Below are positions 52,639-55,273 of a stretch of 64,000 bases of DNA, piece by piece. The notes below the pieces were generated by a model. It did no database searches and had not been told where the DNA came from. It worked only from the letters and a program-made list of their open reading frames with translations. Made by a program: the position numbers and the translations under genes. Source of the stretch: Sphingorhabdus contaminans (GTDB lineage: Bacteria > Pseudomonadota > Alphaproteobacteria > Sphingomonadales > Sphingomonadaceae). Within the stretch, counting starts at the first letter, position 1. Each line of letters begins with the position of its first letter. Location of the stretch: the NCBI RefSeq assembly GCF_007280415.1, contig NZ_VKKU01000001.1, positions 1,550,001-1,614,000 on the forward strand, written 5' to 3'.

Positions 52639-53163
52639 ATGACAAAATATAGCAAAACCGCCATTGCGTTGCATTGGATCATCGCAATTCTGATTGTTGC
52701 CAATGTAGCTTTGGCAAGCATGGCCGAAGATCTTCCGCGTGCGGCACGCGCCGCTTACATGGATCCGCACAAAGCGATCGGCATATCAATATTGGCGCTA
52801 TCCGTATTCCGCCTGTTTTGGCGCATCGGGCACAAGCCGCCTCCCTTGCCAGAAAAACTAACTGGATGGCAAAGCACGCTTGGGAAAGCGGTCCACGCGC
52901 TTTTCTACTTTCTGATCATCGCTGTCCCTGTCACGGGCTGGCTCATGGTATCTGCGAGCCCTGGCGCACCGCCCGTCGATTTCTTTGGTCTGTTTACGGT
53001 CGATCTACCCGTTTCAGACAGCAAAGCCCTGTCGGGCGTCGGTCATGAAGGTCATGAAATTCTAACCAAGCCGCTGGTAATTCTGATCTTCCTTCACATT
53101 CTGGCGGCGCTCAAGCATCAGTTTATCGATCGGCTTCCTTTCCTGCAGCGAATGTTCCCTTAA
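52639..53163 (+). CDS. Cytochrome b561-family protein
   Basis: 174 residues from the ATG at 52639 with GGGGGAG 8 bases upstream; the open frame starts earlier but lacks a site. Four membrane helices are seen: IALHWIIAILIVANVALA, KAIGISILALSVFRLFWRIG, AVHALFYFLIIAVPVTGWLMV and ILIFLHILAALKHQF. The His residues in ALHW, DPHKAIG, VHALFYF and HILAALKHQF are likely haem b ligands. Such small proteins move electrons between quinol and periplasmic acceptors, for example in superoxide oxidation (CybB type). Probably in a short run with SapC. Confidence 0.88.
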   Translation: MTKYSKTAIALHWIIAILIVANVALASMAEDLPRAARAAYMDPHKAIGISILALSVFRLFWRIGHKPPPLPEKLTGWQSTLGKAVHALFYFLIIAVPVTGWLMVSASPGAPPVDFFGLFTVDLPVSDSKALSGVGHEGHEILTKPLVILIFLHILAALKHQFIDRLPFLQRMFP

Positions 53164-53208: not shown

Positions 53209-53607
53209 CTAATATCGATGTTCAGTGAGCGCCAGGGCTTGGGTAAAGAGCAGATCACGTGCGTCATCGCCCAGCATTTCGTGAAGCAACCGTTCAAATT
53301 GTGGACGGTTGCGTAGCGATGCCCACCTTAGTGCCTGCACCATAACCATTTCATCCACACTTGGCGTAGCGCAGCATGGCCTATGTAACCCGAATGGTTC
53401 AGGCCAGATCTGCGTCATTGTTTCCATGAACAAACTGAAGCGGACCGCTCGCTGTTCAGAATGAAGATAGTTTAGCAACCTGCCATGGAGGTCCATGGCG
53501 GACTTGCGGAGAAGGCACCAACTGCGTGCGGCCAAAATGTAGCGGGCATCCGACGCCGGCATTTCCAAAAGTGTTAGCGGACGTTGGACGAACAGGTCGA
53601 TGAGCAT
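53209..53607 (-). CDS. Unknown protein with a Fur-type palindrome in its promoter
   Basis: 132 residues. AGGAG lies 7 bases before the ATG at 53607. It has no signal peptide or membrane segment and is probably helical: LTLLEMPASDARYILAARSWCLLRKSAMDLHGRLLNYL and MVMVQALRWASLRNRPQFERLLHEMLGDDARDLLFTQAL. Conserved-looking Cys are in RPCCATPS and SWCLL. I do not recognise the family. A perfect 11+7+11 palindrome containing GATAAT-type Fur half-sites is centred about 38 bases upstream, so repression by iron is expected. It may be a small iron-homeostasis protein; a role in metal or haem handling is a guess. Confidence 0.7.
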   Translation of the reverse strand: MLIDLFVQRPLTLLEMPASDARYILAARSWCLLRKSAMDLHGRLLNYLHSEQRAVRFSLFMETMTQIWPEPFGLHRPCCATPSVDEMVMVQALRWASLRNRPQFERLLHEMLGDDARDLLFTQALALTEHRY

Positions 53608-53630
53608 GAACGATCTCCTATAACTGTCAT

Positions 53631-53659
53631 TTATTGATAATCATTCTCATTATCAATAA
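53631..53659. promoter_or_regulatory. Fur-box-like perfect palindrome
   Basis: TTATTGATAAT (53631-53641) and ATTATCAATAA (53649-53659) are exact reverse complements around CATTCTC. The core matches the Fur consensus (GATAATGATAATCATTATC) in GATAAT..CATTATC. It sits 24-52 bases upstream of the leftward gene's start and about 27 bases upstream of the predicted promoter of the rightward small RNA. Confidence 0.8.
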
Positions 53660-53685
53660 ATATTTTCACAGTTCATTGCTCTTTG

Positions 53686-53714
53686 CTTGTCAGATGCTCT
53701 TTTTACCCCAACAT
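53686..53714 (+). promoter_or_regulatory. RpoH-like (heat-shock type) promoter of the predicted small RNA
   Basis: CTTGTCA (53686-53692), a 13-base spacer, then CCCCAACAT (53706-53714) resembles the sigma-32 consensus CTTGAAA/CCCCATnT with proper spacing. Transcription would start near 53720. Alphaproteobacterial RpoH consensus sequences differ somewhat at the -10, so this is a prediction. Confidence 0.5.
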
Positions 53715-53719
53715 CTGTA

Positions 53720-53875
53720 AAATATTCGTCGGTCAGACTTGATTTTGAAACATAACCTCCCCATTCTTGGTTCAGGACGGAAATATCCCCTCCCATTTTC
53801 GTCCTATGGGTGCCGTTAGGCGGCACCACCTCCCTGAACCTTGGCCACCCCGAATTTATTCGGGGTGGTTTTTTT
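53720..53875 (+). ncRNA. Predicted structured small RNA with CU-rich loops
   Basis: About 155 nt between a sigma-32-like promoter and a strong terminator, with no reading frame. An outer helix GGTTCA (53769-53774)/TGAACC (53835-53840) encloses two hairpins. Hairpin 1 has a 10-bp stem (53775-53784/53795-53804, one G-T) and a loop ATCCCCTCCC. Hairpin 2 is a 7-bp stem, GGTGCCG (53809-53815)/CGGCACC (53821-53827). Together they form a three-way junction. Single-stranded ACCTCCC is at 53828-53834 and ACCTCCCC at 53755-53762. These motifs are anti-Shine-Dalgarno, as in Rhodobacter CcsR and related sRNAs. Neighbour: a Fur-boxed gene on the other strand. Confidence 0.6.
53845..53875 (+). terminator. 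Strong intrinsic terminator of the predicted small RNA
   Basis: CCACCCCGAA (53845-53854) pairs with TTCGGGGTGG (53859-53868) around TTTA, followed by seven T. No plus-strand gene precedes it except the predicted RNA. Confidence 0.88.
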
Positions 53876-53891: not shown

Positions 53892-54761
53892 TTATTCCGC
53901 CGCGATCAGCGTTGAAGAGCCAAGAGCTTGCTTTGCCAAAGCACGAGCCAGATTGGCTACCAACAACGAAATGGAACCGAGAAGGTGAGTCGGTTCACGC
54001 AGGTTCGAATCGAGATAAAGCGAACGATCGACTTCCAACTGCAACGCATGAACATTGGATCGCGGTCGCGCATGACGGCGAAGGATATGTTCGCCGGAAT
54101 AAGGATGGTTCAATGCCGCGCGATATCCCGACAGCCGGATCTGCTCCACCAAAAGCTCAGAAAAGGGTGAAGAACAACTCTGCCCGAAACGATCTCCCAC
54201 CACGAACTGCGGCGGCGTACCACTCTGCGATTGCCGGATGGGTGGCATGCTGTGCAGATCAAGCAGAATAGCGACCCCGAATTTCGCGTGCATAAGCTTC
54301 AACAGCTCATCAATTTCGGCATGATAGGGCCGGTGGTAGCTTTCAATACGGGCGTTTATATCTGCCATCTCAAACTGGCATTTCCAGATATCTCCATCGC
54401 CAGCCAGTCGCCTTGGTACAAGGCCAAGTCCGCCACGCTGCTTGAGACCCGGCGCAGGATAATCCGCCGCGTTCGCACTTCGAACCATTTCCACGTCAAG
54501 GTCGCGCTCGTCCCGGTTGAGGTCGATCCAGGCCCTGGCCTTGTGCGCTACAATGGCAGGAATTCCACTGCCGACCGACGCACGCAGCAGAAGGTCGGCG
54601 TAACGATCCTCTAGTCGGATGAGCGACTCGCGCGGTAGCCTCAAAGACTGAAACACAATTTCCGGATAATCCCGACCAGCATGCGGAACGGACAGGAGAA
54701 CGGGAAGCGACAATTGCTGTTTCCCGTAAACGGTAAATCCGTCCTTCTCCGTCATGGTCAT
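53892..54761 (-). CDS. N-formylglutamate amidohydrolase family protein
   Basis: 289 residues from the ATG at 54761 (AGGACG about 8 bases upstream); the frame is open to 54956 without family sequence. Motifs: LPVLLSVPHAGRDYP, LEDRYADLLL, ARAWIDLNRDERDLD and AILLDLHSMPP, then LQLEVDRSLYLD, all of the FGase (HutG-type) family. It removes the formyl group from N-formylglutamate in histidine degradation or may act on related N-formyl compounds. No hut genes are in the window. It is divergent from cpdR. Confidence 0.9.
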   Translation of the reverse strand: MTMTEKDGFTVYGKQQLSLPVLLSVPHAGRDYPEIVFQSLRLPRESLIRLEDRYADLLLRASVGSGIPAIVAHKARAWIDLNRDERDLDVEMVRSANAADYPAPGLKQRGGLGLVPRRLAGDGDIWKCQFEMADINARIESYHRPYHAEIDELLKLMHAKFGVAILLDLHSMPPIRQSQSGTPPQFVVGDRFGQSCSSPFSELLVEQIRLSGYRAALNHPYSGEHILRRHARPRSNVHALQLEVDRSLYLDSNLREPTHLLGSISLLVANLARALAKQALGSSTLIAAE

Positions 54762-54895
54762 TTCACATCGTCCTGCTACCTTATCGATGTCTTGGCACAT
54801 TTTAGCGGTTTTGGTGTAAAAAATTAAAACTCTGCGGTTATGGGACAGCGATGTGATGCGCATTTGATTCCGCGCAGTAAGAAAAAGGACGTTCG

Positions 54896-55273
54896 ATGAC
54901 CCGTATTTTGCTTGCAGAAGATGAACAGGCAATGCGCGAATATCTGGCGCGGGCACTGGAGCGGTCCGGATATGAAGTTGTATCAGTCGACCGCGGAACA
55001 GAAGCGGCGCCTTTGTTGGAGAGCGAACATTTCGACCTGCTGCTGACCGATATTGTGATGCCGGAAATGGACGGTATCGAACTGGCGCGCCATTGCAGCA
55101 AGGTATCGCCGCAGACCGAGGTCATGTTCATCACAGGCTTTTCAGGCGTCGCATTGCGCGCAGGCGAGTCGATGCCCAATGCCAAAATCTTGTCCAAACC
55201 CTTCCATCTGAAGGATCTGGTGCTAGAGGTCGAACGTCTGTTCGCCAAGGAAAGCTTCGGCGAGCTTAAATAG
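54896..55273 (+). CDS. cpdR: CpdR-type single-domain response regulator
   Basis: 125 residues, receiver domain only. Phosphoacceptor Asp52 is in LLLTDIVMPEMDGIELAR. TRILLAEDEQAMREYLARALERSGYEVV, MFITGFSGVALRAGE and KILSKPFHLKDLV match the Caulobacter CpdR pattern. In its unphosphorylated state CpdR primes ClpXP at the cell pole and controls degradation of CtrA and PdeA. CtrA is encoded at 33260-33961. A tRNA gene follows 43 bases on. Confidence 0.92.
   Translation: MTRILLAEDEQAMREYLARALERSGYEVVSVDRGTEAAPLLESEHFDLLLTDIVMPEMDGIELARHCSKVSPQTEVMFITGFSGVALRAGESMPNAKILSKPFHLKDLVLEVERLFAKESFGELK

Follow-up and report, generated by a model that had tools for sequence, protein, structure and literature searches.

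A probable αR8-family small RNA gene with a predicted RpoH-type promoter in Sphingorhabdus contaminans

The window, a stretch of 64,000 nucleotides of the Sphingorhabdus contaminans genome, contains a predicted small RNA (sRNA) gene next to the convergent gene for N-formylglutamate amidohydrolase (FGase), whose stop codon lies 17 bases from the sRNA terminator. The closest upstream gene on the plus strand, encoding cytochrome b561, ends at 53163, and a small minus-strand gene (53209-53607) stands between it and the sRNA locus. When neighbour genes were compared across genomes, the gene for the response regulator CpdR was found at the same loci as the sRNA and FGase. The features of the locus are as follows:

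53738-53766, plus strand: predicted promoter CTTGAT-N16-CCCATTC, RpoH1-like, conserved in 30 Sphingorhabdus loci
53773-53875, plus strand: sRNA gene of about 100 nt, probable orthologue of αR8 (MmgR/SuhB/SisA), from covariation, an RF00519 score of 33.2 bits and synteny
53774-53805, plus strand: hairpin 1, an extra 5' hairpin with a C-rich loop (covariation)
53787-53794, plus strand: CCCCUCCC, first predicted anti-Shine-Dalgarno (anti-SD) seed, in the loop of hairpin 1 (conservation)
53809-53827, plus strand: hairpin 2, the counterpart of the first hairpin in the αR8 Rfam model (RF00519 alignment)
53828-53842, plus strand: linker ACCUCCCUGAACCUU, single-stranded and invariant, second predicted anti-SD seed (αR8 10-mer region)
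53845-53875, plus strand: intrinsic terminator, with its stem at 53845-53868 and T-run at 53869-53875
53892-54956, minus strand: FGase (PF05013, E 5e-61), the convergent neighbour marking the αR8 locus
54896-55273, plus strand: CpdR response regulator (NF046022, 185.8 bits, cut-off 180), the second conserved neighbour

The 132-aa protein encoded on the minus strand in the region 53209-53660 has no match in Pfam or NCBIfam. A strong Fur-box-like palindrome (53636-53654, 16 of 19 matches) lies just upstream of its gene. In another genus, at least two sRNA loci (L094, L095) have a homologue of this protein as a neighbour, with no obvious Fur box there. A plasmid collection searched with the sRNA gave no match.

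The initial annotation had described a plus-strand terminator at 53845-53875 that no coding gene precedes, and this is confirmed, the next gene (53892-54956) being on the minus strand. The sRNA stretch folds better than all 200 of its dinucleotide shuffles (z -4.95). In an alignment of 30 homologues from the genus Sphingorhabdus (A1), RNAalifold recovered both hairpins and the terminator without being supplied with a structure. An explicit count over the same alignment found that 96.8% of cells pair and that 11 of 24 pairs are changed on both sides, with a covariation score that none of 500 shuffles reached and a signal that was destroyed when partners were slid by 1-3 columns. In hairpin 1, 93% of cells are paired, and six of its nine counted pairs are changed on both sides; in hairpin 2 the figure is 100%, with four of six pairs so changed. 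The two hairpins read from the single sequence, the first with a C-rich loop, are thus upheld by shuffles, RNAalifold and covariation. The third helix proposed with them, an outer helix pairing 53769-53774 with 53835-53840, is not: it forms in the window sequence, but only 48.3% of its cells pair over the 30 homologues, no better than shuffled. Compensatory changes, looked for in all three helices, are present in hairpins 1 and 2 and in no pair of the outer helix, and the three-way junction that this helix would close is not conserved.

The conserved unpaired parts of the RNA are the loop of hairpin 1 and the linker CUCCCUGAACCU. The loop reads CCCCUCCC in nearly all Sphingorhabdus copies and is C-rich in many other genera (CCCCUCAU or CCCCCCUUUCG); the columns of the linker are invariant both in A1 and in a second alignment (A2). 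RNAalifold on a family-wide alignment did not return hairpin 1, owing to a stem of variable length that is aligned wrongly; within the genus the program recovers it, and it is visible in single sequences. By comparative evidence the sRNA gene is real, with its transcription predicted. It is highly improbable that the locus is the 3' end of a longer plus-strand transcript, read through from cytochrome b561, or just the stretch where the convergent gene is terminated. Cytochrome b561 does end a short way upstream in several relatives, but in the window the minus-strand gene separates it from the sRNA, and the flanks in most other genera yielded none, with promoter, hairpins and linker still in place. 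As for FGase, the 17-base distance to its stop codon would suit a shared terminator region; however, the gene lies on the opposite strand and reads toward the locus, and the T-run suits the plus strand only.

Conservation upstream of the RNA is concentrated at CTTGAW...CCCAT (53738-53766), directly before hairpin 1. The sigma-32-like promoter named in the initial annotation, CTTGTCA-N13-CCCCAACAT, is not conserved even among the closest relatives; the site was wrong, although an RpoH type remains the most likely one for the conserved element. Since the 5' end of the sRNA is placed from the promoter position and its 3' end from the terminator, the predicted RNA starts elsewhere than had been thought and measures about 100 nt rather than about 155 nt. 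Similarly, of three anti-SD motifs proposed before, those at 53787-53794 and 53829-53834 are present and conserved, whereas the CCTCCCC at 53755-53762 coincides in part with the -10 element, ahead of the predicted start, which makes it untranscribed promoter and not an RNA motif. The kind of gene had been recognised correctly: a separate trans-acting sRNA that ends at a terminator and carries anti-SD seeds. Its start, its junction and the number of its motifs are revised here.

RpoH1 promoters of Alphaproteobacteria have the published consensus CTTGAA-N15-16-CCTATAT, and rpoH1 is the only rpoH gene reported from Sphingomonadales (PMC4843759). We scored against this consensus 30 copies of the wider family, nearly all from Sphingomonadaceae genera other than Sphingorhabdus. 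They match at a mean of 10.6 of 13 positions, versus 7.0 in shuffled windows, and 26 of the 30 loci reach at least 10/13, versus 1 of 242 and 0 of 406 random intergenic windows from two genomes; random intergenic windows score about 7/13. The promoter in the window itself has only 9/13 matches, and many Sphingorhabdus copies fit the consensus less well than do those of other genera. In six Sphingorhabdus genomes the dnaK promoter reads CTTGTG-N15-CCTATAT, and groES has a similar element followed by a CIRCE-type inverted repeat. It is possible, if somewhat doubtful, that the same αR8 orthologue, with the same mechanism, is read instead by the housekeeping sigma factor and is linked to growth or nutrients, like SisA and SuhB, rather than being a stress RNA. 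Sphingomonad σA promoters are lax (TTGNNN-N17-TANNNN in Zymomonas; PMC7566282), and the σA spacing also fits the conserved promoter (TTGATT-N17-CATTCT); in addition, SuhB is regulated by growth rate in Sphingopyxis (PMC6563040) and SisA is nearly constitutive (PMC12559287). However, the C before TTG, the AA after it and the CC before the -10 element recur family-wide, and intergenic windows almost never reach such RpoH1 scores. As predicted from sequence, the sRNA promoter is most likely of the RpoH type, and lax σA recognition could account for part of the match. Sister-family αR8 genes (L031, L033, L044, L046, L047) have CTTGAW-N15/16-CCTAAAT-like promoters, at 11-12/13.

The initial annotation did not recognise the family and proposed a covariance search against Rfam. 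The sole meaningful match in this search is suhB/mmgR (RF00519), aligned at full length (positions 1-77 of 77; E 1.4e-5 in a 171-base search) with 33.2 bits, below the gathering threshold of 41 bits, which is a curation cut-off for automatic annotation and not a biological feature. Orthologues fall below this cut-off too, with up to 39 bits within the genus and up to 39.8 in other genera. The core layout of αR8 is present, namely a hairpin, a single-stranded anti-SD motif containing CUCCCU and a terminator hairpin, and the linker coincides in position with the CCUCCCU of RF00519. FGase lies beside the sRNA in 29 of 30 Sphingorhabdus loci and in 21 of 24 loci of other Sphingomonadaceae genera; it lies beside αR8 in 16 of 21 sister-family loci, and beside none of the nine second-site αR8 copies of the genus. 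αR8 adjoins FGase in most species, including sisA of Caulobacter (PMC12559287). Because this synteny is shared with above-threshold αR8 genes of sister families and with sisA, we identify the sRNA as the αR8 gene of Sphingomonadaceae, and thus as a member of a known family, by synteny together with the sub-threshold RF00519 match.

A DNA search detects the sRNA in 32 of 61 relatives, nearly all of them Sphingorhabdus, while a covariance model built from the window RNA (R1) matches 208 of 298 genomes of the order. In a class-wide draw, R1 matches 15 of 289 genomes, three of these from the same family, and those matches outside the family that were checked (G048, G057) fall on αR8 loci. A 5' hairpin outside the Rfam model is formed by sister-family αR8 RNAs too, in some of them with a C-rich loop, and the three-hairpin form may for this reason predate Sphingomonadaceae; the two-seed form is regular in this family. 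Computation supports the RNA structure, the orthology, the promoter type and the target-site enrichment described below. We consider it probable that the sRNA is the Sphingomonadaceae orthologue of αR8, about 100 nt long, with its own RpoH1-type promoter, acting as an Hfq-assisted anti-SD repressor, repression being predicted.

A second αR8 copy in the same genome (G000:C2:321245-321320) scores 44.4 bits, above the RF00519 threshold. It has a different seed, CAUCCUCUCCUAAAGACUU, occupies a site without FGase and is present across the genus.

The earlier comparison with CcsR1-4 of Rhodobacter does not hold. RF02344, the model of the αr14/CcsR family, scores 15.3 bits on the window for a cut-off of 58.8, which is reached in none of the 61 relatives' genomes; membership is rejected, and the FGase synteny points to αR8. 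An αr14 or cuckoo RNA (NfeR1, CcsR1-4) would share the C-rich hairpin loops and the RpoH-like promoter, and other genera yield full-length but sub-threshold RF02344 matches of up to 32.8 bits, which most likely reflect shared C-rich seeds. Yet NfeR1 and its kin have an unpaired CCUCCUCCC in all three hairpins (PMC10746234), whereas the window RNA has no CCUCCUCCC: it has one loop with CCCCUCCC, its sole C-rich loop motif and a shorter one, one linker motif, and a terminator loop without a motif. We accordingly give this assignment very little credence.

Repression through the anti-SD seeds was examined indirectly, by way of the ribosome-binding sites of genes for TonB-dependent receptors (TBDRs). 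In the window's genome, GGGAG occurs at SD distance in 21 of 45 TBDR genes versus 27 of 364 other ORFs (p 1.9e-10), the latter including three TBDRs, which works against the effect. On the same 45 and 364 genes, AGGGAG is found at SD distance in 12 TBDR genes versus 4 other ORFs (p 9.8e-10) and TCAGGGAG, the complement of CUCCCUGA, in 4 versus 0 (p 1.3e-4), whereas AGGAG is not enriched on TBDR genes (p 0.096). In an 800 kb sample from a second genus (G243), GGGAG precedes 6 of 9 TBDRs versus 33 of 554 other ORFs (p 5.4e-6), and AGGAG none of the nine. These p-values are nominal, about ten motifs having been tried, and the tests cover a sample of genome stretches. TBDR start codons were called automatically; that GGGAG is enriched and AGGAG is not argues against a mere artefact of start calling. 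Overall duplex energies of the seeds did not differ significantly between TBDR starts and other genes (linker, p 0.45; loop, p 0.055), and another anti-SD RNA might also explain the preference for GGGAG. The ribosome-binding sites of TBDR genes (L204-L252 in G000; L273-L312 in G243) prefer GGGAG over AGGAG, unlike those of other genes.

SisA represses TBDR and other mRNAs, its anti-SD 10-mer pairing upstream of the start codon with Hfq (PMC12559287), and Sphingopyxis SuhB acts on a 5' UTR with Hfq (PMC6563040). The window's genome has an hfq gene and 46 plug-domain matches. In four of four Sphingorhabdus genomes searched, Hfq is encoded by a single ORF that holds two Hfq domains in tandem (L236, G000:C1:953427-953858).

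For the window RNA, we infer transcription, Hfq binding, stress induction and repression. The sRNA, about 100 nt long, would be transcribed from its own promoter, of the RpoH1 type (CTTGAW-N15/16-CCYATNT). In this RNA the αR8 core (hairpin 2, the CUCCCUGAACCU linker and the terminator) is joined by a 5' hairpin displaying a further C-rich seed, CCCCUCCC. Both seeds are complementary to Shine-Dalgarno sequences of the GGGAG type. Pairing there, aided by Hfq, would block translation of many mRNAs, TBDRs foremost, and outer-membrane uptake would be trimmed. We tentatively put forward, as an open bet rather than the expected outcome, that an ancestral αR8 became an RpoH-driven two-seed regulator in Sphingomonadaceae, shutting down TBDR synthesis under protein-folding stress, with the GGGAG sites of TBDR genes kept as its shared target.

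The αR8 family is already known, and widely conserved in Alphaproteobacteria; what is new is modest: the locus has been placed and its boundaries corrected, a predicted RpoH-type promoter and a second seed are described, and matching SD sites are enriched on TBDR genes. A previously unannotated spot can now be assigned to an sRNA family that ranks among the most widely conserved in Alphaproteobacteria, and whose syntenic copy the Rfam threshold misses in these sphingomonads. The results offer a concrete hypothesis, leading from the heat-shock sigma factor through αR8 to TBDR mRNAs of the GGGAG type. If one anti-SD RNA acts on the genes of 46 plug-domain proteins, it would provide a simple global control of nutrient uptake. 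The main text of Zymomonas sRNA papers contains no sequence matching the sRNA, and a literature search for CUCCCUGAAC returned only an unrelated microRNA paper.

Among known systems, αR8 (MmgR of Sinorhizobium, suhB of Rfam, SisA-D of Caulobacter) shares with the window RNA its FGase setting, its core and its anti-SD seed. The window RNA differs in having one more hairpin at its 5' end, where a second C-rich seed lies, in its linker (CUCCCUGAACCU, where αR8 has UUUCCUCCCU), in its RpoH1-like promoter and in a RF00519 score below the cut-off. SuhB of Sphingopyxis granuli TFA, from the same bacterial family, is an RNA of αR8 type that depends on Hfq and represses through a 5' UTR, but is reported as 61 nt (PMC6563040); it may correspond to the second-site copy G000:C2:321245 rather than to the FGase-side locus. 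The αr14/cuckoo RNAs (NfeR1, Rhodobacter CcsR1-4; RF02344) share C-rich anti-SD loops, a link to stress and the hairpin layout, but have seeds in all three hairpins and a different locus. sX13 of Xanthomonadaceae (RF02232) likewise has hairpins with C-rich loops; the window matches it at full length but weakly (22.9 bits, cut-off 50), and it belongs to another class of bacteria, the resemblance being most likely convergence. Finally, an RpoH-driven αR8 would, if true, be to σ32 what the porin-repressing sRNAs of enterobacteria are to σE, which drives them.
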